Shown: one piece after another, positions 5,918 through 64,000 of the stretch
How the letters are laid out: each line of letters begins with the position of its first letter
Position numbering within the stretch: position 1 is the first letter of the stretch
Origin: Ilex aquifolium
Lineage: Eukaryota > Streptophyta > Magnoliopsida > Aquifoliales > Aquifoliaceae
DNA: 64,000 nucleotides
Assembly (NCBI GenBank): GCA_951799425.1
Contig: OX637409.1
Location: forward strand, 12,682,960 to 12,746,959
Reading direction: 5' to 3'
Notes under the pieces: model-generated
Databases searched by the model: none
The model's input: only the letters and a program-made list of their open reading frames with translations
What the model was told of the DNA's origin: nothing
Position numbers and translations under genes: made by a program

Positions 5918-6309
5918 CTACCGGAAGGTGTGTGTCGGCCTTCCGGAAGGTTTTGCTAAAAACCCCAGCTTGCCTTGCTCACAGCTAGTACCTTCCGGAA
6001 GGTTTTGCCCACTGGAATGAACCTTCCGGAATATTTTAGCTACTGGAGTAAAACCTACCGGAAGGACCTGTCTACTGGAGTGGACCTTCCGGAAGGTTTT
6101 GCCTTGGGTTTCTTTTTGACTGCCGAGTTCTTCCGGAAGGTTTTGTTTTCTGGAATGAACCTTCCGGAAGGTTTTGGCTATTGGAATGGACCTTCCGGAA
6201 GGTTTTTGCTACTGATGTCGACCTTCCGGAAGTTCTTCAAATTGATCTTTTTCATGTAACAGTTCCTTCAGTGACCTTCCGGTAGGTGTATGACGACCTT
6301 CCGGAAGGT
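5918..6309 (+). repeat. CCGG palindrome array, ACCTTCCGGAAGGT type (about 12 units)
   Basis: About twelve complete or decayed copies of ACCTTCCGGAAGGT are separated by 17-35 bp spacers. Many spacers read TTTTGCCCACTGGAATGA or a close variant. The array lies about 240-630 bp before the LTR 3' end. Here the spacer reads ACTGGA in the LTR sense; most other LTRs in the window whose orientation is known show it antisense. Confidence 0.9.
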
Positions 6310-6545
6310 TTTTCCAAAAACTTGAAATTTTCAAAATGCTTAGCCATGCTTTTGGGCTTTGTTTTCTTTGGCTTCTATGACATAAATGGACATAAATGGA
6401 GGTATAATTGACCTTGTGGATGGTAAATCTGATTAAAAGCATGTGAGTGACGTGGTGTCGGGTTATACGACTATCACGAGTATTTCCGCGGGTTGACGGA
6501 TGGTCAACGGTTAATAAAGGACCCCCGGAAATTTGGGGCGTCACA

Positions 6546-8427
6546 CAGTGAATCAAGATAACTTCTCCCTCTCTATCCCGTATATAAGAGGAGGGAACAA
6601 AGGAGTCTACATGCTAGGGAGGGGAGAGAGAAAGGTTGGGTCGGGCATCAAGAACCGGAATTGATGTCACATATGCCCTTCTCTTTGGTCCATAGCTAGC
6701 AACTCACCGTACTAAGCGCGACAGCCTCACCCCCTGAGATATATTAGAACCCAACAGTGTGGAGTCGTAATTCAATATGATTAGCAAATATGTTTGCAAG
6801 TGATGAAATATGGCCACAGATAATTCAAGAGAGCAAAACGAAAATTAAAATAAGAGTAACGACACATAAATACAACTTTACATAAAAACCGAAAATAAAC
6901 CAAACTTCTACAATGGAAATATCACATTTGGATAACCTATTCATATGTTGAAACTTTGAAGGATAGAAAAACCCTTATAGAATCTTGACTATAATGACAT
7001 CTATTTCTTATTTCCTATCTTTCCTCATAAAAAATAGAAACTATAAAAAGAGGAGGGTTAGCAACTCAGCCCAAGTTTAATTCAGACAGAAAAGTGAAGA
7101 GATTTAACATTAGAATCTGCAAAGCAACCAAATACACATAAAAATTGGTTGACTCAAGTCAAAATGAGTACAACTTCACCATAAGTTTAATATTTTGTTT
7201 ATAGTGCAGTAGTTATTCTAAAAAAAATAAAGGAGAAAAAACATTCATTAAAAGAACACAAAAAGAAGTCCATATTAAAATAGTCTTAGCTTAAATATGA
7301 TTCATTTTTTTTTCAATGAGTAATTTGTTCATTCTCAACACCAAGACCATTAAACCAACATATTTCTCAGGTTAGCCATTAAAGAAACTTTCTATTCGAA
7401 CAAACATGACAAAAAATACCAATCCTCTCCACTTGCAATAACTCTACAAGTGGAGAGGAAAGAACCCTAGAATTGAGTGTACTCCAACAAAGTAAAGGTA
7501 GCATAATCAACTGATAAAGGAAAACAACTGGAACTTGAATAAATCTTTCCAATTAATGTTGTGGTTCTACAAAAGTTACACATCAATTGTCATACTCCCA
7601 TAGTACACCATTAGGGCCACAGAATTGGTTGAAAAATTCAATAATCAATTTTTAATTAACAGATGAACAAAGTAAGAATGAGAAGCTACCTTAAGGTTCC
7701 TCATGGCCTTCCATTGAAACAATCATTTGCCTTTTGGAGAACACTGATTAAAAATATGCAATCAATCATCCAATTCATCAAAATATGCAATCAAATCCAT
7801 TGGAATATGTAATGCAATCAACCAAAATATGTAATCAGATCCACCAAAATATCCATCCAAAATACATTTAAAGGAAATCCTTCCAACCACATTAAAAATC
7901 CATCCCAACAAACCTTTCTTGTTCTATCACTTGTTTTGGGTAACCTAAAATTAAAGACAAACAATCATATAAGCACGAGCACTTATTCAGGCATGAAATT
8001 AATTCTTTATTTATGTATGGCAACAATAAACTCTGGTTAATTTTACCTCTTGGTTAACATCTTTCAATTTCTCTCTTTGCTCAATGGACCTGTACTTGAT
8101 AAATATAAATGCAAATATTAATACAATTATCGTACATCATCTATGTGTACAACCAATAGATATGACTCATATAGAGTAAATATTAGTACCAACTTTCCAG
8201 AAAACTTCCACGAAATTACAAAATTGGTACATGTCACCCAGACTCTGAAAGGTGGTGATAATAATGCAAATCTCACTTATGTGAGGAGGGTGTGGCTGCA
8301 ATGCAGCATTAGATATGATAATTCCACATAAATCATAACTTCTACTACCATTACAATTCTTGGATAATAATTGAATTCTTGTACAATCATAAGATGTTGC
8401 AAACAGCGCAACCATGTCCCCAATTCT
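6546..8427. other. Older AT-rich sequence with no intact gene
   Basis: No credible ORF or TE terminus is seen. It is continuous with 10393-13109 across the solo LTR at 8433, and carries one copy of the duplicated exon-like segment (7452-7757). It may be the 3' part of a decayed minus-strand gene whose other pieces are at 11021-12447. Confidence 0.4.
7452..7757. repeat. Direct duplication, left copy
   Basis: About 305 bp closely matching 11432-11736, with scattered substitutions and small indels seen by eye. On the minus strand its end resembles a short exon followed by a GTAGCT donor. In this copy the reading frame that is open in the right copy has a TGA stop. Confidence 0.85.
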
Positions 8428-9090
8428 CCTTGTGTAACGCCCTAAAATCCCCCTTGGTCGGCATTACTATTTACAACCATTCACATCATAAGAGCAACTA
8501 ATAAGATCCATAATTAAAGAAATTTCATTCCATCAACCACAATATCTACATCATCATCCCCAAAAGAATAAGTCAAACCATGGCCATTACATCCAAAAGA
8601 ATATGCCCAAATAGGACAATTACATCCCAAAAATCAACTATGAGTTTGCAGCGGAATAACCAAAATATTAGACATTACATTGTCTCAAAATAAACTTCCT
8701 AAGGTAGAATCTAAGAGCATGTGGCTCTAGGCATCACTCTCGGGATCCACGTTCCCGTCTATTGGAGCTTCCCATTGTGCTGGCTCATCAACTCTAAGCT
8801 CGTCCTCCAAACCATAATCTGAAAATATATTATTTGTAGGGGGTGAGCACTAAGCTCTGTAGCAACATTCTCCCAAACTCGAACAAGGTTTAGAAAACAT
8901 ATAAAACAAGTCGGTCATTTTGCAAATATCATATAGAACTTTTGAAGGAAAATATGGACATTTTAATAGATCTCTAGTTTACGAACAACAATAAAGTTAA
9001 GCGGAGAGGTGAAACCAATTACCAACATGGAGCCATACAATTTTCCAAAAGTAACCCATACTCCACACATGATATAATATTGTTCTATTT

Positions 9091-9230
9091 GGCATGAGCA
9101 TGCTTACAAGGAACCTCTCACCCTCAAGGTATTGTTTCTTTGACATGAGCATCCTTACAAGGAACCTCTCACCCTTACGGTCTTGTTTCTTTGGCATGAG
9201 CATCCTTACAAGGAACCTCTCACCCTTACG
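9091..9230. repeat. 51 bp tandem repeat within solo LTR A2
   Basis: Almost three copies begin at 9091, 9142 and 9193, each containing CATCCTTACAAGGAACCTCT or a one-base variant. The motif embeds the near-palindrome CCTTACAAGG. The same motif is amplified with a different period at 60473-60917. Confidence 0.9.
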
Positions 9231-10182: not shown

Positions 10183-10236
10183 GTACCGGTACGCATACCG
10201 GTACGATAAGGTTACTGGAGTTCGGCGTACCGGTAC
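10183..10236 (-). repeat. CCGG palindrome array, GTACCGGTAC type (3 units)
   Basis: Two perfect GTACCGGTAC units and one with a base change (ATACCGGTAC), with the spacer GGTTACTGGAGTTCGGC between units two and three. It lies about 150-205 bp inside the LTR 5' end. Confidence 0.9.
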
Positions 10237-13666: not shown

Positions 13667-13785
13667 TTGTATTAAAGCATCACTAATTTAATTCATCAAA
13701 CTTTTTGTTATAGCGAAACCTATTAATGGGTTTCCACAATTAGATGCATTTACATTGTTGAAGCAATGCCAGAGATAAGTATCAT

Positions 13786-16224
13786 TGTGACACCCCAATT
13801 TCCGGGGGTCCTATATTAACCGTTGATCATCCATCAACCAGCGGAATTACCCGTGAATGTCACTCAACCCAACACCACGGCGATAGCATCCCCTTAGCTG
13901 GGATCATAACTCACAAATGTAAATTGGATTCAATTATTCATTGGGTTCAACCAAGATCCAACATACCAGGATTTATACTCCATTATAGTCCATTTACATC
14001 ATTGGAGGGAAGGAAAGCATAGACCGAAAATAGGGCAAAGCAGTTTAAAAATCTGAAAATTCTTGAGAGTGTACCGGTACTGTGTACCGGTACAATATCG
14101 TACCGGTACTGCGTACCGGTACGGTTTGTCTACTGGAAAGTGTGTACCGGTACACAGTACCGGTACGGTTTGTCTACTGGAAAGTGCGTACCGGTACCCT
14201 ACCGTACCGGTACACAGTACCGGTACTTTCTGCCCAGTTTTGCCTTTTTCAACCATTTTTCATTTTCAATCCATTCCAAACCTCCCAAAATCATCCAACA
14301 CATGTTTGATAAGATTTCCCATATAAAACATAATTTGTACAAGTTCCATTACAATTAATTCCATATATTTACATATCAAAATGGAATTTTCACAAAAACT
14401 TTACAAAATAGTCATACAAGCCACAAGTCGGCTTTCTTCAACCTTGGGGCTCGAAACGGGAACCGTCCGCCGGTGTAAACCCCGCACCTGAAATGTTTTT
14501 TCCCACAAAGGGTGAGCCACGCTCAATAGGGTATCTCCTAAAGAGGCTACTCCCCAACCTATATGCATATGAAATGTTCACATGCCACAAAAACCACAAT
14601 TCATAACAATTCAAGCAAGAAAGTATATTCAATGTTGGAATTTTGCAAAGCCATGCTATGTAATGAGGTGAGACTCACTCATGCACATCAACCGAGTCCT
14701 TCCCGACTCCTCCACACATGCAAGTGCCAATGTGTACGAATCCGTCATTTATGTTGCACATCAAATGACATTTTATTCTAGGGTCTTTATAGGGGTGGAT
14801 GTTCATGGACCACACCAAGGGTCACCCAACCCACACGGAATTTACGGACTTCCACCGAGGGTTCCACGTACACCCACACACTTCATGGGCCAAGCTAAGG
14901 GAGTGCGTATCCCAAGCACCGGGTCTTGCACCCGAGGGATCTTCTAGCCCTTCTTGCTACCCCAACCCTAACAACATGTAAACCGTGAGACTCGACTAGG
15001 TCATCGACCCAGCTCATGCGAGCCCACTAGTCATCCACCAAACGAGGTGAAGACAACCACCATGCACACACCCACTAAATGCGATGTTCCCGTGCATATG
15101 CAATATGATGTCTCATTACAACTAAAATACAATGTTCAACATGGCATGAGTGACATATGAACATTTTTAATACATTTCACACATTTCATGGCAAAATCAT
15201 ATCATAAGCATATAATTCCCATAGCACAATTTTCAAGCATGTTATCACATAATCATGCTATTAACACTTTAAATTCTCAAGGCATTTATACTAACACATG
15301 ACATGCCCACAATTCCATATAACACAAGAATCACATTGGGTATATTTCACATATCCAATTCTAGAAATTTCAACTAGCAATTTCTAATTATCAATCCATG
15401 CTAGGATTTATCTTTACCCTCATTCATACCCATTTCACCCAAATTAACAACAATAGGCAAATGATATATATATCTATCAATCTACCCATTTCACCTAAGC
15501 ATTCTAGGTGTGGAATAAACCTTGGTAGGAGGAAACCCTACCTCTTGAAGCGTAGAGAACAACATTGAGAAGCTCCGAGAACCCCAAACGAGGTGGAACC
15601 CTCACTCTCCCAAAATCCCGTTCTTCGAATCACTCCAAAACTTGACCTCCTTGGTATGGTTTTGCAGCCCTCGGCGAGGAGAACAACTTTTGTTCTTGGC
15701 CCGAGTGGATTTGAGCTCTCAATCTCCGTAGATTGTAGAGAGAATGTGGAGAACTCAAGCCCTTTCCCTCTCTTCTTTCTCACGTGTATCGGCTGAACAA
15801 ATGGGGAGAAAATCAGATTTTCTCCCCTTTAAATACCCTTTAAATACTTGGCCCACAATGCGCCACACGGCCCTTATTTTTCGGATCCGTTTTAGCCCCG
15901 AAACGATTAAATTTCGCTCCGGTTCAAGTTCAAAATATTTTTATTTTAACTTGCCGTCATTTATTTCCCAAAATTTAAAATTTCATTCAGAATTTCGTTT
16001 TTGGGTCTCCCGAGGCTCGACCGCCTCGTAAAACGCGAAAAATCCGTCTAACTCGGAATTCAATGAAATTTGACAGGGTAAGTAGATTTCGCGAGATGAA
16101 TCCAACGGTGATATCCGTTTCGTCATCCGAGCTCTAGAAAAATTCAGGTTTACAACCTGTACCATAGTGGCAATTTACCGTTTTGCCATTTTTCACAAAA
16201 GTTTAAATTTTCTCGGGTTTTACA
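13786..16224 (-). mobile_element. Solo LTR, family B (B2)
   Basis: Plus-strand reading TGTGACACCCC...CGGGTTTTACA is the reverse complement of family B termini. Perfect 5 bp duplication ATCAT at 13781-13785 and 16225-16229. Length is 2439 bp with no internal region, so it is a product of LTR-LTR recombination. It contains a minus-strand TTTTCAGGT acceptor-like site near 14490 and an AGGTAGGG donor-like site near 15537. Confidence 0.94.
14071..14226 (-). repeat. CCGG palindrome array, GTACCGGTAC type (8 units)
   Basis: Eight units in 156 bp. Two spacers are almost identical (GGTTTGTCTACTGGAAAGTG), giving a higher-order repeat; others are only 4-8 bp. It lies about 285-440 bp from the LTR 3' end, the same relative place as in B1, B3 and B4. 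Confidence 0.93.
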
Positions 16225-19226: not shown

Positions 19227-20928
19227 TGTAAACCTCACATGTTTATATTAATATAGTAATGTAATTGTTTGGTAATTCTTATATATGTAATGAACTAAGA
19301 ATGAATCATATAGATTGTAACAGTAGGAATAAATACTAGGGAGGCAAATTGATGGTAAACTTAGGAAAAGTTGTTAGGTAAGTTTCTAAATATTTTTAGG
19401 TCAAAATAAGATTTCCATTGAATTCGGAAGATCGAGAAACCTTGGGAGAGGTAATATGGGGTATATTAGAAGTTAGAAAGTATTCTGGAGTTCAAACAAA
19501 TTTTAGAAAGAATTCGGATAGAAAGAAATTTGACACTACCTTAGTATTTTAGCTATACCTCTTTACTCCTAACTCCTATTGATCTGATTTTTGGACAATA
19601 AAAACTAGACTTCACGGGCTACAAAAGTGTATTTGAAGAAAATTTTATGAATCGGTTCAAAATAGGTCAAAATTGATCTGGAAGTTGAGGGTATACTGTC
19701 ACCCGCGTCCGGACGGGAATAGACACTCGTCCGGACGCGTATGGCAGAAACTTGGACGCAAAAACACGCGTCCAGACAGCACAAAACACGCGTCCGGACG
19801 CGCCAAACCGAGGGCTTCATGTCCCAGACTTGTTTTGGGTGTTTTCTCTCCCATTTGCAAACCATTTCATCAAATCTACCTCTTGAGAGGCTTAGAGGGG
19901 AAGAAGCAAGGGAAAAGCAAGAGATTGAGGTGGTGATTCAAGTTGGGAAAGATCAAATCTTCTAGTTCTTCACACAAAAACTAAGGAACAAGGTAGGGGA
20001 TTCTTCTCAAATTCTTTCATTGAGGCTTAGGGTATTATATATGTATGTTTTCGATATTCTTGATAGTTATATGATAAATAGTTATGAGTTCTTGGTTTCT
20101 TTATTATTGAAACATAGTTTTGAACAAAATACATGTTTGGATTCAAGAAACCTTGTTCTTGAATTTCTAAAATCTTAGTTTTGCTAAATGCATGTTTGGG
20201 TTATGAAAAATACATGGATTCTTGATTTCCAAATGCCTATTGTTGATTAAATCATGTTTTCATCTAATACTTGTTCTTGTTCCAAGAAATTATGATTTTT
20301 GACAAAACCCTAGAATTTTGATATCAAGATTGTGAAGGTTTTATTGATATGATCTCTTGCTTATTTTAATTCATTTATTATTGTAGTATATTGTGAATTG
20401 TACAATTGTGATACTTGAATTATTAATGGAAATTGTGATTGATTAAGATTGTGGTTGTTGAGAAAATGTTGGTTTTATCTCTTGTATGGTTTGTTGTGAT
20501 GGACTTGAATTGCCTTCGAGAGCTGCCATAGAGTGTTAGAGGTTAGTCTATCCCAGTGGGGGTGAGATGGTTTCCTAGAACTTGTAGTGAATTGTTGTTT
20601 GTGAGAGCAACCACTATTGTTCACGTAAGTTCGAGGCTGAGGGATGGTATACATTTCCTAGGAATGATTCGTCAATGCCGTGGGAGACGGTATACACCCT
20701 TCCTAAAGTGTTTGTGATGTATCCTGCGGGGAATGATTGGTTTGTGGTGGGTGAATGAGATAGAATCGTTGTGTAGATTCATGAGAAGCAACCATCATAC
20801 ATGACAATGGGAAGAAACCAACATACATGAGAATATGGAATGAGGTTACTGGATTATTTATGGATTGCTTTAATTTCTTGTAAGTTTATTCCTGTCATTG
20901 ATTTACTGTATTCCGTGCACTTGAGATC
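19227..20928 (+). mobile_element. 5' LTR of A1, first segment
   Basis: Starts TGTAAACCTC and matches the 3' LTR from 41718. It lacks about 24 bp present in the 3' LTR near 41848-41871 and is broken by the three-LTR element at 20929. Together with 31271-31663 and 34090-34240 it gives 2246 bp, against 2252 bp for the 3' LTR. Confidence 0.92.
19704..19802 (+). repeat. CCGG palindrome array, CGCGTCCGGACGCG type (5' LTR of A1)
   Basis: Units CGCGTCCGGACG, CGTCCGGACGCG, a decayed CGCGTCCAGACAG and a perfect 14 bp CGCGTCCGGACGCG. This is a GC-rich arm variant on the same CCGG core. The 3' LTR equivalent at 42221-42297 has lost the decayed unit. Confidence 0.88.
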
Positions 20929-22510: not shown

Positions 22511-22520
22511 TATATTTATA
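22511..22520 (-). promoter_or_regulatory. TATA box of the nested LTR (repeated at 26547 and 30583)
   Basis: Minus-strand TATAAATATA, preceded 50-180 bp upstream by the CCTTCCGGAAGG array and followed by a GA-rich leader and an AAG|GTAGGG donor-like site. This layout makes the array a candidate U3 promoter element. Confidence 0.6.
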
Positions 22521-22572: not shown

Positions 22573-22694
22573 ACCTTCCGGAAGGTTTTTGTCGTTCTTC
22601 CGGAAGGTTTTTGTCGTTTTTCCGGAAGGTTTTGCTCACTGGAAGGTTTTTGTCATCGACCTTCCGGAAGGTTTTATCGTTCTTCCGGAAGGTT
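22573..22694 (-). repeat. CCGG palindrome array, ACCTTCCGGAAGGT type (identical at 26609-26730 and 30645-30766)
   Basis: Five units, two perfect 14 bp palindromes and three with one decayed outer arm, with spacers TTTTGCTCACTGGAA and TTTTGTCGT. They sit just upstream of the LTR TATA box in LTR orientation. Confidence 0.92.
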
Positions 22695-24964: not shown

Positions 24965-27229
24965 TGTAACACCCCAAAATACACCTTGGAAGCATTACTA
25001 GCCAATCACCATTCACATCATGAGAGCACTAAATAACTCCATAAACAATAAAGTTTCATCCATCAATCATTGATATTTAAACAAAATTCGGGCAGAGTCT
25101 CCTTTGTACGGGGAGCTCTACCCAAAACTCAACCTGTGCAATTATACTATAATTGACCACACCGAGTCCCCAGATGCATCATAACATAAACTTTCATTCA
25201 ACATATATCACATCCACACTATCATCCCAAAAGAATAGGCCAAACAATGGCATTTACATTCCCAAAAGAATTTAAACCATAATACGCAGCGGAATTTACA
25301 AAAGATAACTAGACTACACACAGTTTCAAAAGAATATTCTAGTCTAGACAAAAGTAGGCATCAGCTCTAAATACCCCACGCGGGATCCAAGTATCCCTCT
25401 AGGGAAACCTCTCCATGGCCTGGCTCACTAGCACCGAGCTCATCCTCAGGCACAAGATCTGAAAAAGTTTAGCAGTAGGGGGTGAGCACGAAGCTCTGTA
25501 AGAAAAATCCTTCCAAACCCAAACAAGGTTTAGAAAAGTGTATAAAACGGCCGGTCTTGTTTCGCAATTAACATATATAACATTTGAAGTAAAACAGTGA
25601 CATTTAACCATGATCTCAAGTTTAAATAGCAAGAATAAATTGAAGGGATGAATAACCACAATACACCATTTCAAATCCATTCTACCATTAATCATTTCAA
25701 CAAGTTCTCCAAGGAATCCCATACTTCCCGAGAATCTTATCGAAATCATTTCTGGTATAATGCACGATAACCCACACTGTATGTCCGATACAACCCACGT
25801 TACTAATCCGTTACCATTAGTGATAGGAAAAGTTCGTATCCACACGGCGTACAAAGGCGTCTACCCACTCTAAGTGGTAGGAAAAGTTCATACCGGTGTG
25901 GTATCCGAAGACGTCCACCAGCTACATGATACCCGGCCAATAGTAAACCATGTTTGTATCGTACAATCACACAAGAGGTAAAATACCAACCAATAATCCC
26001 CATAATCAAAAATAGCATAAAACCCCCAATTTCCTTTCAAGCAATTTCCATAAAATCCACAATTTCATCATGAGGCAATTTCAAAGAAATCATGAAGAAA
26101 AATCCAAGAGATCATGTATAATAGCCTTTCAATACTCAACACAAGCACTATAGTTTCTAAATTGAGAATAAAAGAAGAGTTCAAGAGGAAACCCAACACT
26201 CTTGAAAACTAGGGTTTTTCAAGCAAAAGAGGGATTTCATGGTATACAACCCTAAACTTGTGTACAACATGTGAATAATTGCAAGAGAATCAAGAAACAA
26301 CATACCCATAGCAAATACACATCATTAAGAGTCCAAAACATACATATATCATAACCCTAATCTCAATGTAAGTGAATGGAAGGAAAACCCCTACCTTGGT
26401 GTTCTTGAGAAAATTAGGGCTTTGATCTTGAATCAACCCTTCAATCTCTTGTTTTCCCTTAATCTTATGTTTCTCTCTTTCTCTCTTCCTCTCTTATGTT
26501 TTCTAGGGTTTGGAGTGGTGTAATGAAGGCTAAGGAGGTGACAAAATATATTTATAGTGGAGAAAAAGCCGGCATTCGCGAAACAGAAATTTTTGGATTT
26601 TTACACTAACCTTCCGGAAGGTTTTTGTCGTTCTTCCGGAAGGTTTTTGTCGTTTTTCCGGAAGGTTTTGCTCACTGGAAGGTTTTTGTCATCGACCTTC
26701 CGGAAGGTTTTATCGTTCTTCCGGAAGGTTTTGCTCACTGGAACTTCTAGCGCATTTTTGACCCATTTAGAGGTCGAATTGGAAAATTTTCATTAGAGAC
26801 ACTTTTGTAGCTCTAGATGTCTAATATCTACTGTCAAAATTTCAGATCAATTGGACATAAGAATAAAAATTTATGGCCAAAATACTAGAAGGTGTCCAAG
26901 ATACTTTTTACCCAACTTCACTCTAAAGCGTATTTTAACTCCGGAATCCTTTCTAACCTCTTATACAAGTCATATCACCTCTCCCAATGTTTTTCGACCT
27001 CCCGGATTCAATGGAGACCTTATTTTGGCCTCAAAGTATTTGGAATTTTGTCTAATCACCCTTTCCAAGTTTAAACGTCTTCGAACTTAACTTAGAAATT
27101 CAACATGCATCTCTAGTATTCTTTTCCTACTATTACCATCCATATGATTTATTCTTACATCATTATCTATATATATGAATCACTAAACAAATACTTTACT
27201 ATATAATTATAAACATGCGGGGGTTTACA
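24965..27229 (-). mobile_element. LTR 2 (middle LTR) of the three-LTR element
   Basis: Has the LTR 3 alleles at its left end (G at 25239 and 25364) and the LTR 1 alleles at its right end (A at 26824 and 26844). It is flanked by a PBS on one side and a polypurine tract on the other. Confidence 0.95.
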
Positions 27230-29000: not shown

Positions 29001-31265
29001 TGTAACACCCCAAAATACACCTTGGAAGCATTACTAGCCAATCACCATTCACATCATGAGAGCACTAAATAACTCCATAAACAATAAAGTTTCATCCATC
29101 AATCATTGATATTTAAACAAAATTCGGGCAGAGTCTCCTTTGTACGGGGAGCTCTACCCAAAACTCAACCTGTGCAATTATACTATAATTGACCACACCG
29201 AGTCCCCAGATGCATCATAACATAAACTTTCATTCAACATATATCACATCCACACTATCATCCCAAAAGAATAGGCCAAACAATGGCATTTACATTCCCA
29301 AAAGAATTTAAACCATAATACGCAGCGGAATTTACAAAAGATAACTAGACTACACACAGTTTCAAAAGAATATTCTAGTCTAGACAAAAGTAGGCATCAG
29401 CTCTAAATACCCCACGCGGGATCCAAGTATCCCTCTAGGGAAACCTCTCCATGGCCTGGCTCACTAGCACCGAGCTCATCCTCAGGCACAAGATCTGAAA
29501 AAGTTTAGCAGTAGGGGGTGAGCACGAAGCTCTGTAAGAAAAATCCTTCCAAACCCAAACAAGGTTTAGAAAAGTGTATAAAACGGCCGGTCTTGTTTCG
29601 CAATTAACATATATAACATTTGAAGTAAAACAGTGACATTTAACCATGATCTCAAGTTTAAATAGCAAGAATAAATTGAAGGGATGAATAACCACAATAC
29701 ACCATTTCAAATCCATTCTACCATTAATCATTTCAACAAGTTCTCCAAGGAATCCCATACTTCCCGAGAATCTTATCGAAATCATTTCTGGTATAATGCA
29801 CGATAACCCACACTGTATGTCCGATACAACCCACGTTACTAATCCGTTACCATTAGTGATAGGAAAAGTTCGTATCCACACGGCGTACAAAGGCGTCTAC
29901 CCACTCTAAGTGGTAGGAAAAGTTCATACCGGTGTGGTATCCGAAGACGTCCACCAGCTACATGATACCCGGCCAATAGTAAACCATGTTTGTATCGTAC
30001 AATCACACAAGAGGTAAAATACCAACCAATAATCCCCATAATCAAAAATAGCATAAAACCCCCAATTTCCTTTCAAGCAATTTCCATAAAATCCACAATT
30101 TCATCATGAGGCAATTTCAAAGAAATCATGAAGAAAAATCCAAGAGATCATGTATAATAGCCTTTCAATACTCAACACAAGCACTATAGTTTCTAAATTG
30201 AGAATAAAAGAAGAGTTCAAGAGGAAACCCAACACTCTTGAAAACTAGGGTTTTTCAAGCAAAAGAGGGATTTCATGGTATACAACCCTAAACTTGTGTA
30301 CAACATGTGAATAATTGCAAGAGAATCAAGAAACAACATACCCATAGCAAATACACATCATTAAGAGTCCAAAACATACATATATCATAACCCTAATCTC
30401 AATGTAAGTGAATGGAAGGAAAACCCCTACCTTGGTGTTCTTGAGAAAATTAGGGCTTTGATCTTGAATCAACCCTTCAATCTCTTGTTTTCCCTTAATC
30501 TTATGTTTCTCTCTTTCTCTCTTCCTCTCTTATGTTTTCTAGGGTTTGGAGTGGTGTAATGAAGGCTAAGGAGGTGACAAAATATATTTATAGTGGAGAA
30601 AAAGCCGGCATTCGCGAAACAGAAATTTTTGGATTTTTACACTAACCTTCCGGAAGGTTTTTGTCGTTCTTCCGGAAGGTTTTTGTCGTTTTTCCGGAAG
30701 GTTTTGCTCACTGGAAGGTTTTTGTCATCGACCTTCCGGAAGGTTTTATCGTTCTTCCGGAAGGTTTTGCTCACTGGAACTTCTAGCGCATTTTTGACCC
30801 ATTTAGAGGTCGAATTGGAAAATTTTCATTAGAGACACTTTTGTAGCTCTAGATGTCTACTATCTACTGTCAAAATTTCGGATCAATTGGACATAAGAAT
30901 AAAAATTTATGGCCAAAATACTAGAAGGTGTCCAAGATACTTTTTACCCAACTTCACTCTAAAGCGTATTTTAACTCCGGAATCCTTTCTAACCTCTTAT
31001 ACAAGTCATATCACCTCTCCCAATGTTTTTCGACCTCCCGGATTCAATGGAGACCTTATTTTGGCCTCAAAGTATTTGGAATTTTGTCTAATCACCCTTT
31101 CCAAGTTTAAACGTCTTCGAACTTAACTTAGAAATTCAACATGCATCTCTAGTATTCTTTTCCTACTATTACCATCCATATGATTTATTCTTACATCATT
31201 ATCTATATATATGAATCACTAAACAAATACTTTACTATATAATTATAAACATGCGGGGGTTTACA
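29001..31265 (-). mobile_element. LTR 3 (5' LTR) of the three-LTR element
   Basis: Carries C at 30860 and G at 30880, where LTR 1 and LTR 2 have A. It ends at the AGATC duplication. Confidence 0.95.
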
Positions 31266-41717: not shown

Positions 41718-43969
41718 TGTAAACCCCACATGTTTATATTAATATAGTAATGTAATTGTTTGGTAATTCATATATATTTAATGAACTAAGAATGAATCAT
41801 ATAGATTGTAACAGCAGGAATAAATACTAGGGAGACAAAATTGATGGTGAAGTTTAAATTTCGAAGGCGTTTAAACTTAGGAAAAGTTGTTAGGTAAGTT
41901 TCTAAATATTTTTAGGTCAAAATAAGATTTTCATTGAATTCGGAAGATCGAGAAACCTTGGGAGAGGTAATATGGGGTGTATTAGAAGTTAGAAAGTATT
42001 CCGGAGTTCAAACAAATTTTAGAAAGAATTCGGATAGGAAGAAATTTGACAATACCTTAGTATTTTAGCTATAACTCTTTACTACTAACTCCTATTGATC
42101 TGATTTTTGGACAGTAGAAACTAGACTTCAAGGCCTACAAAAGTGTATTGGACAAAAATTTTCTGGATCGGCTTCTAAATAGGTCAAAATTGATCTGGAA
42201 GTTGAGGGTATACTGTCACCCGCGTCCGGACGGGAATAGACACGCGTCCGGACGCGTATGGCAGAAACTTGGACACAAAAACACGCGTCCGGACGCGCCA
42301 AACCGAGGGCTTCACGTCCCAGACTTGTTTTGGGTGTTTTCTCTCCCATTTGCAAACCATTTCATCAAATCTAACTCTTGAGAGGCTTAGAGGGAAAGAA
42401 GGAAGGGAAAAGCAAGAGATTGAGGTGGTGATTCAAGTTGGGAAAGATCAAATCTGCTAGTTCTTCACACAAAAACTAAGGAGCAAGGTAGGGGATTCTT
42501 CTCAAATTCTTTCATTGAGGCTTAGGGTATTATATATGTATATTTTCGATATTCTTGATAGTTATATGATAAATAGTTATGAGTTCTTGGTTTCTTTGTT
42601 ATTGAAACATAGTTTTGAACAAAATACATGTTTGGGTTCAAGAAACCTTGTTCTTGAATTTCTAAAATCTTAGTTTTGTTAAATACATGTTTGGGTTATG
42701 AAAAATACATGGATTCTGGATTTCTAAATGCCTATTGTTGATTAAATCATTTTTTCATCTAATACTTGTTCTTGTTCCAAGAAATTATGATTTTTGACAA
42801 AACCCTAGAATTTTGATATCAAGATTGTGAATGTTTTATTGATATGATCTCTTGCATATTTTAATTCCTTTATTATTGTAGTATATTGTGAATTGTACAA
42901 TTGTGATACTTGAATTATTAATGAAAATTGTGATTGATTAAGATTGTGGTTGTTGAGAAAATGTTGGTATTATCTCTTGTATGGTTTGTTGTGATGGACT
43001 TGAATTGCCTTCGAGAGCTGCCGTAGAGTGTTAGAGGTTAGTCTATCCCAGTAGGGGTGAGATGGTTTCCTAGCACTTGTAGTGGATTGTTGTTTGTGAG
43101 AGCAACCACTATTGTTCACGTAAGTTCGAGGCTGATGGATGGTATACCTTTCCTGGGAAGGATTCGTCAATACCGTGGGAGACGGTATACGCCCTTCCTA
43201 AAGTGTTTGTGATGTATCCTGCGGTGAATGATTGGTTTGTGGTGGGTGAACGAGGTAGAATCGTTGTGTAGATTCCTGAGAAGCAACCATCATACATGAC
43301 AATGGGAAGAAACCAACATACATGAGAATATGGAATGAGGTTACTAAATTATTTATGGATTGCTTTAATTTCTTGTAAGTTTATTCCTGTCATTGATTTA
43401 CTGTATTCCGTACACTTGAGATCATTACAACTATCATGATTTTATTCTCAAAATCTATATATGCTATTTTCCAAAAGAGACTTGTCATCTTTTATTTGTT
43501 TTAAAACCTTGTTCAAGTTTGGGAGTATGTTGCTACAGAGCTTAGTGCTCACCCCTTACAAACAATATATTTTTCAGATTATGGTTTATAGGAGGAGCTC
43601 GGAGTTGATGAGCAGATAGCTTGGGAAACTCAATTGGATGGAAGCGTGGATCCCGAGGGGGATGTCTAGAATTGTTCTTTTTATGTTCTAGTCTAGGAGA
43701 TTCATTTTTGAGATAATGTTCATGTTAAGATTTTTCTTATTCCACTGCGAGATACTAGTTTGGCATATTCTTTTGGGTGTAATTGTCATAGTTTGACATA
43801 TTCTTTTGGATGTATTTGCCATGGTTTGGCATATTATTTTGGATGATGTTTTGTAGATATTATGTATGATGAATTAAATTTTCTTCATTTATGGATTTTA
43901 TTAGTTGCTCTCATGAGGTGAATGGTTTTAGATAGTAATGCCGTCCAAGGAGGATTTTGGGGCGTTACA
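41718..43969 (+). mobile_element. 3' LTR of A1
   Basis: TGTAAACCCC...GGGGCGTTACA, 2252 bp, uninterrupted. Probable intron 42488-43577 (CAAG|GTAGGG ... TTTTTCAG). Palindrome array at 42221-42297. Confidence 0.94.
42221..42297 (+). repeat. CCGG palindrome array, CGCGTCCGGACGCG type (3' LTR of A1)
   Basis: Three units: CGCGTCCGGACG and two perfect 14 bp CGCGTCCGGACGCG palindromes (42243-42256, 42284-42297). Confidence 0.9.
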
Positions 43970-44980: not shown

Positions 44981-47839
44981 TGTGAAACCCCGGAAAATTT
45001 AAACTTTGACGAACAAGGGCAATAGGTGAATTGCCACTTCGGTACTAGTTGAAAAACTGAATTTTTCTAGATCTCGGATGACGAAACGGATTTCACCGTT
45101 GGATTCGTCTCGCGAAATCTAGTTACCATGTCAAATTTCGTTGAATTCCGAGATAGTCGGATTTTTTGCGTTTTACGAGACGAACGGGCCTCGGGTGACC
45201 CCGTACACGAAATTTTTATAAAATTTTAAAGTTTGGGGAAATATTAGAGACAAGTCGAAATAAAAATAATTCGAACTTGAACCGGAGCGAAATTTAGTCG
45301 TTTCGGGATTAAAACGGACCCGAAATCAAATAGGACATGTGGCCAATTGTGGGCCAAGTATTCTAAAATATAAATAGGGGCCTAAAGTCTGAAAAATCAG
45401 ACTTCTCCTTCAACATTTCAGCCGGTTTCAGCCGAGAGAAAAGAAGAGAGGGAAAATGAGAGAAAACTCAACTTCTCTCTACGATTTACGGCCGTGGAGT
45501 GCTCAAATCCACTCGAGCCAAGAACAAGAGTTGTTCTACGCGTCGAGGGCTACGCGTGGGTACCAGAAACGACAGTTTTCACCGAACGTTGGAGGGCCGA
45601 AAATTTGGAAGTGAAGGATTCAAGCTTTCTTTGAGTTCTAGGAGCTTCCCACGGCGATTCTACACGCTACAAGAGGTAGGGTTTTCTTCCTACTTAGGTT
45701 TGTTTCCAACCTAGGAAGGTTATATGGAATGGGTAGGTGTATATATATATGTATCACTTGCCTATTGTGGTTATTTGGGTGAAATGGGTATTGAGAATGG
45801 GTAGCATGATTTAAATCACATTCTCTAGTTTAATGTACCACTAATGCATTTCATGTGTGGGAAATGAGTACCAAATGTGCTAAGCAAGGTTGGTATGAAA
45901 TGGGTATATAAATTTACTTGATGGGTAAATTTAGTAAAAAGTTAAAGGAACTTGAAGTATGGAAAATTGATATGGGAAATTGGGTATAGTGAATTCCTAA
46001 ATGAAATGGACATTTAGGAATGGTTGTTGATAATTTCTTGAGAAATTATGACATATGAGGTTATGTTATGGGTAGAATGAATTCTATCTTGGTATAATTG
46101 TGTAGAAATCAATTAATATGATTTCTTGAGCTTTATGATGAATTTGAGTATATTATGTGATTACATGATCTTGGATGCCTTGAAGGTGTTGAGTAAATGC
46201 TTTGATGAAAATGTGAAGTATGTTTTGCATGAACTATGTATAACATGCTTAGATATTGTGATTAAGGAAAATGTTGATATACACTTGCTTATGAGGTGTT
46301 GACAAAGTGTTGAATTATGGTATTTATATGCATATGCTTATGATATGAAGTACCATGGATATGTGGATTTATTGTTGAGTTGTTCATATGGCATTCATAC
46401 ATATTGAACATGTGGAGAAGATGCAAGGGTACATTACATTGCATTCTCATGGGTACATCACATTCATGGTTATAAGACATGAGTGTGTGTGGGTGAGTTG
46501 ACATCGCATTCATGGGTCATAGGCATGAGTGTGGGTGTGTGCATGTGTTGTGGATCAAACACCAAATCTTGGTGGTTGGTATGTGAACTCGAGAAAGTCG
46601 GGATCGAAGATCCGACTGAGTTGCACGGTTGCATTGCATAAGGAAAACTTGTGTCAGGTAAAGCAAGTAGGGCTAGACACTCCCTCGGGTGAAAAACCCG
46701 GAACCACTGGTTCATACACTCCGACGGTGCAAGTCCAAAAAGTGTAGATAGGCCCACGGAGCCAGCGGTGCGATTCCAAAATCCGTTGCCCAGGAAGACA
46801 CAAGATTTTGTTGTATAAAAACACCCATTCAATGGGTAGCCTCCAACAATGATTGGGTTTTTATAAAGACATAACTTTTAATTCAAACGATCATTGGGAG
46901 GGTTTTTCCGTCGATAGACGGGTTCATACACATTGGCTTTTGCATTGTGTTGTGTGAGTCGGGGAAGACTCGGGATAAGGTGCGTGAGTGAGTTCCATCT
47001 CATATCATGGCATGACATAGCATAGCATGGTAGCTTTCTAACATTGAAGTGTATACTCTTGTTGGATTGGTTGATGCTTGTTGATTGTTGCATGTGCGCA
47101 TTTCATATGCACTTAGGTTGGGGAGTAGCCTCTGTAGAAGGATATCCTATTGAGCGTGGCTCACCCTTCGTGGGACAACATTTTCAGGTGCGGGGTTCAC
47201 ACCGGCGGACGGCTCCCATTTCGAGCCCCAAAGTTGAAGAAAAGCCGACTTGTGGCTTTTATGGTTTAACTTGTAAAGTTTTAGTATAAATTCCATTTTA
47301 ATGTGTAAATATATGGAATTGTATTAAATGGACTTCCATGGACTTTTATAATGTAGAAAACATGAATATATATGTTTGGGTGACCTTGGAAAGGTTTGAA
47401 ATGAGTTGGAAATGAAAAATGGTTGAAACTGGCAAAACTGGGTACCGGTACTGTGTGGTACCGGTACTGTGTACCGGTACTCCCTTTCCAGTGGGTTGAC
47501 AGTACCGATACTGGGTACCGGTACGGTATGGTACCGGTACTGGGTACCGGTACTCTCTTCAAAATTTTCAGATTTTCACACTACTTCGCTCTATTTTCAA
47601 TCTACATTTTCCTTCCCTCCAATGATGTAAATGGACTATAATGGAGTATAAATCATGGTATATTGAATATTGGTTGAACCCAAATGAATAATCGAATCCG
47701 GTTAACAATTGTGAGTTAAGATCCCGGTTAAGGGGATGCTACTACCGTGGTGTTAGGTTGAGTGACATCCACGGGTATTTCCGCGGGTTGACGGGTGGTC
47801 AACGGTTAATAAGGGACCCCCGGAAATTGGGGTGTCACA
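44981..47839 (+). mobile_element. Solo LTR, family B (B4)
   Basis: TGTGAAACCCC...GGGGTGTCACA, 2859 bp; perfect duplication ATATC (44976-44980 and 47840-47844). TATAAATAGG at 45369-45378; probable intron 45676-47187 (AGAG|GTAGGG ... CATTTTCAG). Confidence 0.95.
47442..47553 (+). repeat. CCGG palindrome array, GTACCGGTAC type (6 units)
   Basis: Five perfect GTACCGGTAC units and one decayed (GTACCGATAC). The spacer CCCTTTCCAGTGGGTTGACA is the reverse complement of the ACTGGA spacer. About 290-400 bp from the LTR 3' end. Confidence 0.92.
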
Positions 47840-48183: not shown

Positions 48184-50106
48184 GTGACATCCCGGTATTA
48201 CTTGTAGACTTTTGGGCCTAATAAATATGAGTCATTCATTATTCTCAATATTAATACATTTTTCAGAGTGGAAAGTCTACTGGCCATTGCTTGATGAAAA
48301 ACGTTGTCATTTCCTAACCTCTAAAAATCATCCCTTAGAATGTGTAGTGTATGGATAAAAGGGAGTGTCACTCTCCCTTGGGATGATGTCAAAAGAAAGG
48401 CAACGGAATGGTGGTGTAAATGAAAATGGAATGTATGAAATGAACAAAAGTGCTCTCCAAGCGTAGGGAGTCTTTTGAGTGTCGTGTTTTACTTGGAATG
48501 AGTATTCCAAGGTCGTCTCCTCAGGGAAGGAAGGAAATTATGTGAAGGTGATTTTGTCAAAAAGGAAAAATGTAAAATCTTTTGTTTGAGTTTTGTGAGT
48601 GAAGTTTTTGAATGAAAATGCAATGAAAACAAGTGTTGGCTAATCCAAAGAGGTCATTCTAATGGGAATTCCAACTCAACTCGAAACCTTCCTCCAATGG
48701 TGCTTAAATGAACGATTGATTCGTGGGAAGTTAGGGACAAGATGGAGATGAGGGTTCAAGCATACACCGTGACAATGCCTACGGGATATCAAAGACTCAC
48801 AACCACATCCACTCTCAACCCAGTCAAACCGAACCACCGTACACCGAGTGGAGGAAAAAAGAAGAGTTGAAATGGAATCCTCACGGGGAGGTCTCCCTTG
48901 GATTAACCAACTAAAACTCTAGCTACTCATGAAAGCAAGAAAGAAATGCAAAATGTAAAGAGACATAATTGAAATGGAGCATGAAACTTAAATGAATGCA
49001 AGAAATCTTAAACTAAGAAAAAAATATTCAATACCCATTTTAAGCTTGAAAGTGAAGAACTCAAAACAACAATGGTAGAATCTAGAATGCATAACTAAAC
49101 TTGCAAAGCATTAGAAATAAATGACATTCAAGACAATAAATGAAGCTTACAAGATCCTTACAAAAGATTACAAGTGAAATGGGTGAAGACAATGCAAAAA
49201 TCTAACTATTCATCATCTTCTTCCTTGGACTACTCCTAAGCTTAGGTAGCCACCTTTGAAGAACTTGTGTAATGCTGAATATATGGTGTGTAGAGACTTC
49301 ATTTTCGTCCATGAGGGTCCCTAGGGTCTGTGTGTGCAGGCCTCCCATCAATGGGAGGTGATTTGAAGTCTTGGACAGGCTAGGAGAAGCTTAGCCTGCA
49401 ACTCCCCCGACAGCCCCCTTCTCTCCCATCCTCATTAATGTTCTTGCGTCCAAAGTCTTCAAATTGTGTAAGGGATGCATGGTTGTAGGTAGAACATGTT
49501 GGGATAGGTGTAGGAGAAGTGTAAGTGGGACCCCCAAGCAAGTGGGATATGATTTGCAGGCGTCTGGGCTGTTTTGGGCATTCTGGGCACGTTGTACCGG
49601 TATGCGTACCGGTACGGTTTGGCTACTGGAGTTCGGCGTACCGGTACGGTTTGCCTGCTCTGGACCAGTTTTCGTAAAATTATCATAACTTTTGATCCAA
49701 CCGTTCAATTGAGCTGCAATTTTGACACAATACATAAGACATCCAGATCTACAACTTTTATGTTTTGCACGTTTTTAGATTCGAAGTGGATCATGGTTAA
49801 AAATGAGACAAACAGCGGTACTGTGTCAAAACTTTGGGAAACCAGTGGGCTAAACCTTCCAAATTTCATTTTTCTTGGTTTCTTCACCTTTAAGCCTCCA
49901 AATCCTCATTGAATGTGTCCATCTCTTCACCACTCATTCATCCTTAGTTGCAAGGTTCTAAAATCCATCATTTACGCTATAATTACCTGCAACATCAAAA
50001 ATTCAACATTATTCATAATTTCGGCTAACTCTAAGTACTTAAATACCAAGTTGAGTTAAAATGCATGTAATGAGACCTTGAAATATACAATATTTTGTGC
50101 TCATCA
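48184..50106. mobile_element. Unclassified LTR-like repeat
   Basis: Bounded by TGTGACATCCC and ...TTTGTGCTCATCA. No ORFs. Contains the phrase AAGGTCGTCTCCTCAGGGAAGG (48509-48532), which I associate with LTR or leader regions of plant Ty3/gypsy elements, and a palindrome array. No matching target duplication was found, so the ends are tentative. Confidence 0.4.
49594..49647. repeat. CCGG palindrome array, GTACCGGTAC type (3 units)
   Basis: One decayed (GTACCGGTAT) and two perfect units, with the spacer GGTTTGGCTACTGGAGTTCGGC, close to the spacer in solo LTR A2 at 10.2 kb although the surrounding repeat looks different. Confidence 0.9.
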
Positions 50107-58508: not shown

Positions 58509-58614
58509 ATTATTCTAGTAATTATTTCAATATTAATTTCAATCAGTTTGATCTTAGTTTAAACTTATTTAATTTTCTATTTTAATTGTTTTCACAAGCA
58601 CTCTTAAATTTTGT

Positions 58615-60472: not shown

Positions 60473-60917
60473 GGCATGAGCATCCTTACAAGGAACCTCT
60501 CACCCTCAAGGTTTGGTTTCTCAAGCATCCTTACAAGGAACCTCTTGAGGAAATCACATATTGTCCTCTTTTGGCATGAGCATCCTTACAAGGAACCTCT
60601 CACCATCAAGGTTTGGTTTCTCAAGCATCCTTACAAGGAACCTCTTGAGGAAATCACATATTGTCCTCTTTTGGCATGAACATCCTTACAAGGAACCTCT
60701 CACCCTCAAGGCTTGGTTTCTCAAGCATCCTTACAAGGAACCTCTTGAGGAAATCACATACTGTCCTCTTTTGGCATGAGCATCCTTACAAGGAACATCT
60801 CACCCTCAAGGCTTGGTTTCTCAAGCATCCTTACAAGGAACCTCTTGAGAAAATCACATACTGTCCTCTTTTGGCATGAGCATCCTTACAAGGAACCTCT
60901 CACCCTCAAGGCTTGTC
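60473..60917. repeat. 100 bp tandem repeat (about 4.5 copies)
   Basis: Units start at 60473, 60573, 60673, 60773 and 60873 with very few differences. Each carries two copies of AGCATCCTTACAAGGAACCTCT. Same basic motif as the 51 bp repeat at 9091-9230 in solo LTR A2, but with a different higher-order period. Confidence 0.95.
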
Positions 60918-61736: not shown

Positions 61737-61819
61737 GTACCGGTACGCTGTACCGGTACGATTTACCTACTGGTTCAGGAGTACCGGTACGGTACCGTAC
61801 CGGTACTGTGTACCGGTAC
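61737..61819 (-). repeat. CCGG palindrome array, GTACCGGTAC type (5 units)
   Basis: Five GTACCGGTAC units (two separated only by GGTACC), with the spacer GATTTACCTACTGGTTCAGGA. In LTR orientation it lies about 40-130 bp upstream of a TTAAAAG/TTTTAAG TATA-like site near 61680-61695. Confidence 0.92.
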
Positions 61820-62168
61820 ACTTCGGCTATTTCGACTTCCAGGGCAGTTTTGACCCATTTAGATGTCGAATTAGAAAATTTTTATGAGATACACTTTTGT
61901 AGCCCTAGATGTCTACTATCTATTGTCCAAATTTCAGATCAATTGGATATAAGGATAAAAAGTTATGACCAAAATACTAGAAGGTGTCCCAACTCCTTTT
62001 TACCCAAATTTTCTCTAAGTGTGTTTTCACTCCGGAATACTTCCTAACTTCCAATACACCTCATATTACCTCTCCCAATGTTGTTCGACCTTCCGGATTC
62101 AATGGACACCTTATTTTGACCTAAAAATATTTAGAAATTCATCTAATCACCCTTTCCAAGTTTAAATG

Positions 62169-64000
62169 TGTAACACCCCGCATTTTCGTTTATATATGTA
62201 TATAGATATATACTAAATAATAGTTGTAAAAAGGTTGATATAGTATAACTCGAGGAAATAATATTTGAAATTTAGTTTTAGTATGTGAAAATATGAAATT
62301 TTATGTCCTAGAACTTGTACTAAATAGGTTTGAGGTAGAAATATATGTTGGAGAGGTTTGAGATGGTTTTGGAAGAGATTGGAATGGATTAGAAATGAAA
62401 AATAAAGGAAGAAGGCAAATCTGGGATCAACTACCGGTAGTAACTACCGGTAGTCGAGTGTCCAGTGTACCCGAGCTACCGGTAGTCAACAGGTAGTCGA
62501 GTGCCAATGTACCCGAGCTACCGGTTGTCAAAATTAACTACCGGTAGTCACTGTAAAAATCTGAAATTTTAAGTCGCGAACAAGTCGATTTTTCCTCCAC
62601 TATAAATACATTTTTGTCACCTCCTTAGCCTTCATTACACCACTCCAAACCCTAGAAAACATAAGAGAGGAAGAGAGAAAGAGAGAAACACAAGATCAAG
62701 AGAAAACAAGAGATTGAAGGGTTGATTCAAGATCAAAGCCCTAATTTTTCCAAGAACATTAAGGTAGGGGATTTCTTCCTATTCTCTTACATTGAGGCTA
62801 GGATTAAATTATATGTATTCTTTTGGTTCAAAATCATATATACTTGCTATTATTTACTTGATTTTTGATCCTCTTGCATTTATTGCCATGTTTTAAACAT
62901 TGTGGTAGTTGGATAACCATTAAAGGTCCCTTTTTCATTCTCAAACCCTAGTTTTAAGAAAAATTAATTTTTCCTCTTTACATTTTCTTTGTTCTCGCCA
63001 TCAAAACCTTAGTGCTTGATATTGTATAACAAAATGATGTTTATGGTGATCTCTTGCTCTTTTTCTTCAATTATGCTATGGTACAAATTGTGAAATTTGG
63101 GGATTTTGGGATTTCTGGTAAATTGAGAAAATGTTTGTAATGATATCTCTTGTATGATTGTTGTGATGGACTTGAATTGCTTTCGAGCATTGCCGTAGAG
63201 TGTTAGAGGTTAGTCTATCCCGGTGGGGATTTATGGTATGGTTAGAATGTGAGATATTTGTGGGAATTTTATCGCTTGCGTGGTTGTACGATACGAACAT
63301 GGATTACTATGGACCGGGTATCATGTAGTGGGTATACGTCTTTATATGCCACGCGGGTATGAACTTTTCCTACCACATGGAGTGGGTAGACGCCTTTGTA
63401 CGCCGTGTGGGTATAAACTTTTCATATCGCTAATGATCACGGGTTAGTAACGTGGGTTGTATCGAGCACACAGTGTGGGTCATCGTGCATTGTACCATAA
63501 ATTGTTTTGACAAGAGTTTCGGGAAGTATGGGATTTTGCGAGAACTTGTTGAAAACGGTTCATGGTAGAATGAATTACCAATGATATATGGTGTTTATTT
63601 ATCCATTTCGATTACTATTGCTACTTAAACTTGAGATCTATTTAAAATGTCCTGCTTTTCCTTCAAAATGTTATATATACTATTTGTGAAAATGAGACCA
63701 ACCGTTTTATATACTTTCCTAAACCTTGTTTGAGTTTGGGAAGATTTTGCTACAGAGCTTCGTGCTCATCCCCTACAATTAACATTTTTCAGATTATGCT
63801 ATAGAGGAGGAGCTTGGCGCTAATGAGCCGGGCCTTGGGAAAGCCTCATTAGAGGGGTACCTGGATCCCGAGTGGGACATTTAGAGATGCCCCTTTTATT
63901 TTTGTACTAGACTAGGAACCAATATGTACAAACATTGTAAAGTCTAGTTTCTTTTGAAATTTCGCTGCAATATATTCATGTAATTCTTTTGGGTTGTAAT
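62169..64000 (+). mobile_element. Family A-like LTR (A6), running off the window
   Basis: TGTAACACCCCGCATTTTCG start inside LTR A5; TATA box TATAAATA at 62601-62608; GA-rich leader; AAG|GTAGGGG donor-like site (62764) and TTTTTCAG acceptor-like site (63792). Colinear with the reverse complement of the nested LTRs. Left flank AAATG is the expected target duplication. Confidence 0.88.
62431..62547 (+). repeat. CCGG palindrome array, CTACCGGTAG type
   Basis: Four CTACCGGTAG units plus a decayed CTACCGGTTG and an isolated half unit (CAGGTAG), with the repeated spacer TCGAGTGTCCAGTGTACCCGAG. It ends about 55 bp upstream of the TATA box. Confidence 0.92.

Follow-up and report, generated by a model that had tools for sequence, protein, structure and literature searches.

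Arrays of CCGG-centred palindromes in Ty3/gypsy long terminal repeats of holly as putative sites of a dimeric protein

Palindrome arrays at a holly locus

The stretch of DNA analysed here (the window) comprises 64,000 nucleotides of holly, Ilex aquifolium, corresponding to C19:12682960-12746959 of a genome assembly with 800,232,872 bp and 103 contigs. It is composed of nested long terminal repeat (LTR) retrotransposons plus one multicopper-oxidase open reading frame (ORF) on the minus strand at 52000-53697; its best relative, at 88% identity, belongs to Ilex paraguariensis. The LTRs carry arrays of 10-bp palindromes that share the centre CCGG, use four arm words, and form a composite unit of rigid spacing with a CCAGT motif. 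The internal ORFs match RVP_2, RVT_1, RNase H, Integrase_H2C2 and SH3_Tf2-1 in gypsy order, and by their sequence the array-bearing elements are assigned to Ty3/gypsy. A Chromo match lies C-terminal to SH3_Tf2-1 in all three pol fragments, with weak scores (16.7, 17.6 and 13.2) below the curated cut-off of 25.1. Type A LTRs start with TGTRAAACCC and finish with GTCACA, type B LTRs start with TGTAAACCCC and finish with GTTACA, and 5-bp target-site duplications (TSDs) flank A2, A3, A4, B1 and B2. The LTRs exceed 2 kb and the primer site TGGTATCAGAGC is present, which we take to be only suggestive of the Tekay/Del lineage.

We find 13 palindrome arrays at 10 insertions: one element has an array in each of its two LTRs, and a tandem element has one in each of three LTRs. 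The arrays are located as follows.

5918..6307, minus strand: array A1, arm CTT/AAG, 12 CCGG; Ty3/gypsy element, 3′ LTR from 3921
10183..10236, minus strand: array B3, arm GTA/TAC; LTR 3′ end near 8429
14071..14226, minus strand: array A2, arm GTA/TAC; LTR ~13785-16224, TSD ATCAT
19706..19800, plus strand: array B1 in the 5′ LTR, arm CGT/ACG; element ~19227-43970, TSD CCATA
22575..22691, minus strand: array B2 copy 1, arm CTT/AAG; LTR ~20927-23194
26611..26727, minus strand: array B2 copy 2, in a tandem copy of the 4036-bp unit
30647..30763, minus strand: array B2 copy 3, in a tandem copy of the 4036-bp unit
31944..32041, minus strand: array A3, arm GTA/TAC; LTR ~31664-34084, TSD GTATT
42223..42295, plus strand: array B1 in the 3′ LTR, arm CGT/ACG; LTR ~41718-43970
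47442..47553, plus strand: array A4, arm GTA/TAC; LTR ~44981-47840, TSD ATATC
49594..49647, no strand assigned: array D, arm GTA/TAC; third LTR-like backbone
61737..61819, minus strand: array B4, arm GTA/TAC; LTR 3′ end near 59848
62431..62547, plus strand: array C, arm CTA/TAG; LTR starts ~62170 and runs 62170-64000 in the window

A first-pass annotation of this DNA had described CCGG-centred palindromes with arms CTT, GTA, CTA and CGT, and these are present in the window as described, and genome-wide. Its ten insertions stand, with 13 arrays in place of its eleven, and its placing of arrays in family A, family B and a third LTR-like repeat corresponds to backbones A, B and D here.

In A-type LTRs the array ends ~235-290 bp ahead of the LTR 3′ end. 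Array A1 is oriented opposite to its LTR and contains three half-switched palindromes, the hybrid sites CTTCCGGTAG/CTACCGGAAG. The match of the B4 LTR to other B LTRs ends at 62169, at the start of element C, and LTR C is itself chimeric, being A-like at 62268-62489 and B-like from 62529 onward, joined at the array. TATAAT or TATAAAT occurs 84-95 bp past the array in A1, A2 and A4, and likely TATA boxes follow two further arrays.

22513..22520, minus strand: likely TATA box TATAAATA, 55 bp downstream of array B2
62601..62608, plus strand: likely TATA box TATAAATA, 54 bp downstream of array C

The tandem element that bears the B2 arrays (20927-31266) has the order LTR-internal-LTR-internal-LTR, with a 4,036-bp unit at 99.8-99.9% identity and an outer target duplication AGATC; its internal part yields just a pol C-terminal fragment. 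Downstream of arrays B4 and B3 in the LTR sense, a 100-bp (60473-60915) and a 51-bp (9078-9230) tandem repeat, respectively, hold the common phrase GCATCCTTACAAGGAACCTCTCACCCT.

Ten-base symmetry and four arm words

In the window, 59 of the 182 CCGG (32%) extend into at least 3 bp of dyad per side, while the 15 other 4-base palindromic cores do so in 0-7% of cases. With two of the three copies of the 4,036-bp unit dropped, 153 CCGG are left, and the collapsed window contains 51 CCGG-centred 10-bp palindromes (GTACCGGTAC 29, CTTCCGGAAG 12, CGTCCGGACG 6 and CTACCGGTAG 4), compared with 1.7 on average and at most 4 ten-base palindromes when the whole window was simulated 30 times under a first-order Markov model.

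The first-pass annotation had called all palindromes perfect, which nearly holds: the ten distinct arrays have 56 CCGG in total, and 48 are perfect over 10 bp, the rest having a mismatched arm pair. When 55 of the 56 were scored irrespective of symmetry, seven showed one mismatched arm pair; the left-out site at 5921 (CTACCGGAAG) is also mismatched. Specifically, the bases at positions ±1, ±2 and ±3 pair in 53, 54 and 51 of the 55 sites. Positions ±4 and ±5 pair in 28 and 26 sites, an excess that word class accounts for, and ±6 and ±7 pair in 11 and 5, showing no excess but rather a deficit. The site is 10 bp long, with three symmetric arm bases per side.

The four words sum to 107,504 copies in the genome. 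The genome-wide figures come from one genome and give copies, not events, and the counting may miss some repeats. With the reversed pattern as control, GTACCGGTAC occurs 51,910 times (control 907), CTTCCGGAAG 23,874 (931), CTACCGGTAG 22,728 (353) and CGTCCGGACG 8,992 (134). Genome-wide counts of other arm words cover two of 60. The word GTTCCGGAAC, recombined from the letters of the four, occurs 129 times (control 584), which is background level. GAACCGGTTC was tried as a fifth main word and rejected (371 versus control 807), some of its listed copies being paired nonetheless. At C1:60595-192121, near the contig end, CTT arrays recur, often ~7.5-7.8 kb apart and with near-identical internal spacing; this series, which inflates the counts, may be a single LTR family clustered in tandem or by nesting.

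We further sampled 30 stretches (250 kb) at fixed coordinates on C1-C20 and scored 317 CCGG. Half-sites of the four words are completed to palindromes in 104 of 145 cases, and all other half-sites in 12 of 489. Of the 58 sampled palindromes, 52 belong to the four words; all 52 are homotypic, with no site pairing two different words (0/52), and all 15 arrays with at least two sites are uniform in word. The first-pass annotation had proposed co-varying arms and a genome-wide check of their symmetry. The check is favourable, in word counts far above controls as in half-site completion; symmetry stands, but the arms are not free to vary, because four words make up nearly all sampled palindromes and the recombined word stays at background.

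The composite unit and its LTR backbones

The palindromes are part of a unit with the order palindrome, 14-15 bp, CCAGT, exactly 17 bp, palindrome. CCAR lies exactly 17 bp ahead of CCGG in eight of the ten window arrays (16 of 25 CCAR; spacer oriented as CCAGT), and random placement reached at most five of ten arrays in 2,000 trials. Array A4 is a ninth 17-bp case, in which CCGG has decayed to CCGA. The preceding CCGG is 14 or 15 bp away for 13 of the 16 locked CCAR and 25 bp away for two, and one has none. All 20 occurrences of CCAR-N13-CCGG on both strands of the window fall inside arrays, four of them as tandem copies, and the bases separating motif from palindrome vary among arrays. Representative positions of this spacer element S are given below.

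14174..14180, minus strand: spacer element S, CCAGTAG, in array A2, 17 bp before the palindrome; second copy at 14130-14136
22636..22642, minus strand: spacer element S, CCAGTGA, in array B2, 17 bp before CCGG; second at 22699-22705
49623..49629, minus strand: spacer element S, CCAGTAG, in array D
61767..61773, minus strand: spacer element S, CCAGTAG, in array B4
62462..62468, plus strand: spacer element S, CCAGTGT, in array C, 17 bp before the palindrome

The spacing holds beyond the window. In the 250-kb sample, (C/T)CAG is found 17 bp ahead of CCGG 14 times, and each other offset between 8 and 30 yields 1-6 cases. Across the genome, CCGG-N10/11-CCAGT-N12-CCGG, a pattern that leaves the arms open, has 15,515 matches (control 24), the unit one base longer 20 (control 18) and the unit one base shorter 676 (control 4); the 15,515 units are not independent, since they represent copies, with certain families highly abundant. 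In 37 distinct unit strings, drawn from the first 100 places, all on C1, the facing arms are the same word in 33 (shuffled mean 12.6, maximum 25), the four exceptions being one hybrid, one TTT and two ATA. Among the listed matches with spacing 16, CCGGATTAGTCGGCCCAGTGGGTTCGGATACCGG appears repeatedly, unchanged in every letter and with facing arms that do not match, and is probably another repeat family.

Sixteen of 17 sampled arrays have a blastn match to window LTRs within 700 bp, against a background in which such matches of at least 150 bp cover 26,790 of the 250,000 sampled bases; two of the 16 are weak, one because the array stretch alone matches (L017:9881) and one because the match starts 400 bp off (L029:3706). 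Each backbone carries several words: GTA, CTA and CTT on A; CTT, GTA, CGT and CTA on B; and GTA, CTT and CTA on D. In particular, B1, B2 and B4 have common sequence as far as the array and three different words thereafter. Furthermore, the last palindrome of backbone D reads CATCGAC-CTACCGGTAG-GTTTT (CTA) at sampled locus L017 and CATCGAC-CTTCCGGAAG-GTTTT (CTT) at L027, so that both arms differ between flanks identical in 13 of 16 bases. At L019, flanks of the CATCGAC/GTTTT type (14/16) enclose a different palindrome of the array, and the last palindrome is CTTCCGGAAA.

A comparison of flanks with at least 11 of 16 bases equal yields 33 symmetric pairs, which are not independent of one another. 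As the arms of an array are uniform, independent symmetric switches are few (at least three, for four words). The recombinant LTR C and the inverted A1 array imply that module exchange also happens. Spread by gene conversion, which the first-pass annotation had raised against its own selection argument, may thus have taken place.

Two further features lie in the window.

1..3867, plus strand: pol frame of the A1 element, with Ty3/gypsy protease, reverse transcriptase (RT), RNase H and integrase and a weak C-terminal chromodomain match
59107-59213, minus strand: snoR71, the sole match of the Rfam scan (59 bits versus cut-off 40), inside an opposite-strand gag frame at 58573-59856

A putative dimeric reader, its alternatives and known systems

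In our view the arrays are fairly probably cis-regulatory modules located close to the promoter in Ty3/gypsy LTRs, putatively bound by a homodimeric protein with four specificities. Each 10-bp palindrome would consist of two 5-bp half-sites (GG followed by TAC, AAG, TAG or ACG) joined at CCGG, with the invariant CCGG serving as the contact common to all readers and the three arm bases deciding specificity. Each word would then match one dimeric reader specificity, giving four in all; the simplest candidates are paralogues within a single host transcription-factor family that the elements would exploit. CCAGTRG or a similar motif, which precedes a palindrome by exactly 17 bp and in most cases follows the one before it by 14-15 bp, is a candidate partner-protein site; partner and dimer would be kept at a fixed helical phase, forming an enhancer-like array, found in either orientation, upstream of the LTR promoter. 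A lineage switching its reader would rewrite both arms yet keep CCGG, along with the 17-bp spacing in all but one of the four classes; the direction and number of such switches are putative.

Protein recognition is favoured because the centre is invariant, the symmetry is limited to 10 bp, the words are few and discrete, mixed words are scarce and the spacing is locked. The case is strongest where it draws on the rarity of mixed words, the double-arm change within conserved flanks and the locked spacing, rather than on how many changes there are. As expected of a homodimer site, the dyad symmetry spans a short, definite length and persists across sequence change, in few independent changes. 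Of the readings considered, selection for dyad symmetry at a site recognized by a dimeric protein is the best supported; the first-pass annotation had suggested it, the genome-wide check agrees with it, and it predicts word-specific binding.

A host protein family is favoured as the putative reader. As a lead, we consider the LBD/LOB proteins, which bind CG-rich dyads. The LBD/LOB literature consulted yielded no motif matching the palindromes. A passage on this family describes dimers that discriminate palindromic DNA (PMC10118128).

Several observations weigh against a dimeric reader. The arms are near-invariant at ±1 to ±3 inside each word class, and symmetric variation falls between classes; within a class no covariation shows at these positions, the arms being so nearly constant. 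The hybrid CTTCCGGTAG occurs 4,189 times on both strands versus 1,546 for its control, many of the listed copies belonging to an A1-like family whose LTRs hold as many as three each, and a few high-copy families weigh heavily in the counts. The flank of the CTA/CTT example recurs at other palindromes within arrays, and the flank comparison that gives the 33 symmetric pairs also gives 45 pairs differing in one arm base and 52 otherwise asymmetric pairs. Spacing 16 occurs in true arrays among the 676 shorter-unit matches listed, and the CGT arrays in the window have no 17-bp unit, the B1 motif being 22 bp away. In the nine arrays examined (all but D), no TATA-like match was found within 100 bp of A3, B1, B3 and B4. 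In addition, many array copies look methylated and decaying, as is probable from the 42 sites that carry a single mismatch and lie near 103 perfect ones: the core is changed in 22, and 18 of these changes are G to A (folded orientation, base content uncorrected), at both CG and CHG positions. Arm changes in the same sites affect the outermost base 13 times and the inner bases 4 and 3 times.

A bolder version of the dimeric reader is possible, with a probability well below even: the four words would be a recognition code. Dimeric readers that exclude one another, either host paralogues or proteins carried by the elements, would each activate or protect just the LTRs bearing their own word, and lineages on different backbones would change allegiance by rewriting both arms, with core and spacing retained. 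If so, the arm words would document, across the genome, how readers were switched during an arms race. The four-word arrays would offer a natural experiment on specificity change in a dimeric DNA-binding protein, and on how gypsy elements are driven or silenced.

The alternatives to the dimeric reader overlap, and their probabilities need not add to one. The one that survives best, though we give it only a minor share of belief, is a neutral history in which tandem duplication, LTR recombination and transposition multiplied a few founder arrays that were palindromic by chance, the words moving between backbones as modules that need no function. The uniform arms inside arrays, the chimeric LTR C, and the A1 array, inverted in its LTR yet similar to the B2 array, fit such a history, as do counts driven by high-copy families and a CTA/CTT example whose flank is itself a recurring repeat flank. 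However, it needs four founders all symmetric over exactly 10 bp on one core, and it must accommodate the absence of cross-class pairs from the sample (0/52), the genome-wide scarcity of hybrids, an aligned symmetric change between preserved flanks, and a spacing that stays at 17 while the intervening bases vary among arrays.

It is unlikely that the arrays serve VANC-like anti-silencing, in which an element-encoded protein would bind arrays of its own word and remove silencing, the words diverging to separate the systems. VANC targets, in the passages available from PMC5735166, are likewise motif clusters in non-coding DNA whose units change together and whose motifs differ between families, and nuclear 5′ extra ORFs are possible in chromoviruses according to the text available from PMC11728184. 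Against this, pol stops 53 bp from the 3′ LTR in the A1 element and 41 bp from it in the B1 element, so there is no 3′ extra gene, and no element-encoded reader or extra ORF downstream of pol was seen in these two; the cores, moreover, show G to A decay. The B1 stretch between the primer-binding site and the protease frame (34243-34706) is below the size of a full gag, so a 5′ extra ORF may exist there; the A1 5′ part lies outside the window.

Slightly less probable still is an action through secondary structure, as RNA hairpins or DNA cruciforms, for example as templates of small RNAs silencing the element, a role suggested for maize Sireviruses. Every one of the 10 arrays (two of them taken as 148-149-nt pieces) folds more stably than its shuffle mean, with z from −2.6 to −7.5, and maize Sirevirus palindromes are small-RNA hotspots in the passages available from PMC5311732 and PMC10760457. 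Such folding is expected of any repeated palindrome, however, and the invariant part is the centre, which in a hairpin would form the loop, while the symmetry ends at ±3 and falls below expectation at ±6 and ±7. The cruciform of the first-pass annotation is therefore a poor fit; pairing would also permit any arms rather than four words and leaves the 17-bp lock unexplained.

It is very improbable that CCGG functions as a paired CG/CHG methylation target, since neither matched arms nor a spacing lock would be needed, even though the uncorrected G to A core changes (18/22) fall at CG and CHG positions and array CpG observed/expected (0.70-1.91) is above that of the remaining LTR in five of six LTRs compared, A1 (0.70) lying under its LTR remainder (0.89). 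Quasi-palindrome correction during replication, presumably also a source of symmetry, is disfavoured by the stop at ±3.

Relatives on viral contigs were rejected as well. Pairs of GTACCGGTAC occur in nine contigs, with palindromes counted in all nine and sites inspected in L001, L002, L004, L005 and L007. Viral contig L001 has four palindromes in ~100 bp, and L007 has eight GTACCGGTAC at 4222-4410 inside an ORF, giving repeated PVPRTGT and unrelated to LTRs. The longer CTT-unit pattern had 0 matches in the viral contigs, and an RT piece matched 15 stretches by pattern and none by tblastn.

Among known systems, the arrays resemble Tnt1 boxes in being repeated promoter-proximal sites in an LTR, so far as the available description of those boxes goes. 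To our knowledge, Tnt1 boxes form no four-word palindrome set with locked spacing. They are enhancer repeats of plant LTR promoters in the passage that mentions them (PMC2829016). With the VANC targets of VANDAL (Mutator-like) elements, described in part in PMC5735166 and PMC10398659 as motif clusters diverging together, the arrays share short tandem motifs in non-coding transposon DNA that co-diverge per copy and are family-specific. VANDAL elements, in contrast, are DNA transposons with a known element-encoded binder, and the motifs are not described as palindromic in the passages available from PMC5735166. In Tekay elements, nuclear 5′ extra ORFs are possible according to excerpts of PMC11728184 and PMC12844716.

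The closest analogue is found in Sireviruses (Ty1/copia), so the statement of the first-pass annotation that no named element class has this feature is too strong. Sirevirus LTRs, as described in the available parts of PMC2829016, carry palindromic repeated motif (RM) boxes with a CGG-CCG signature just upstream of the TATA box, for which a regulatory role is proposed there too. Like the arrays here, they are clustered, short, CpG-rich palindromes in the LTR, with a fixed CG-rich signature and element-specific arms, and maize Sirevirus palindromes attract small RNAs (PMC5311732 and PMC10760457, in the passages available). The elements here are gypsy, not copia, and Sirevirus membership was rejected on the basis of their pol. 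Whereas the RM signature surrounds a variable centre, CCGG is the centre in all four words; and whereas the table in PMC2829016 gives one consensus word per element, here four words dominate and several occur per LTR backbone. RM is called Sirevirus-specific relative to the classic retrotransposons compared in that source, whose RM description, in the parts available, has no counterpart to the CCAGT-17-bp unit. No gypsy LTR palindrome arrays of this type were found in the literature consulted, whose incomplete coverage cannot show absence. What is new here is the rigid composite palindrome-CCAGT-palindrome unit. A palindromic LTR grammar, known in copia Sireviruses, is suggested for gypsy too, either by convergence or by one reader family exploited by both.

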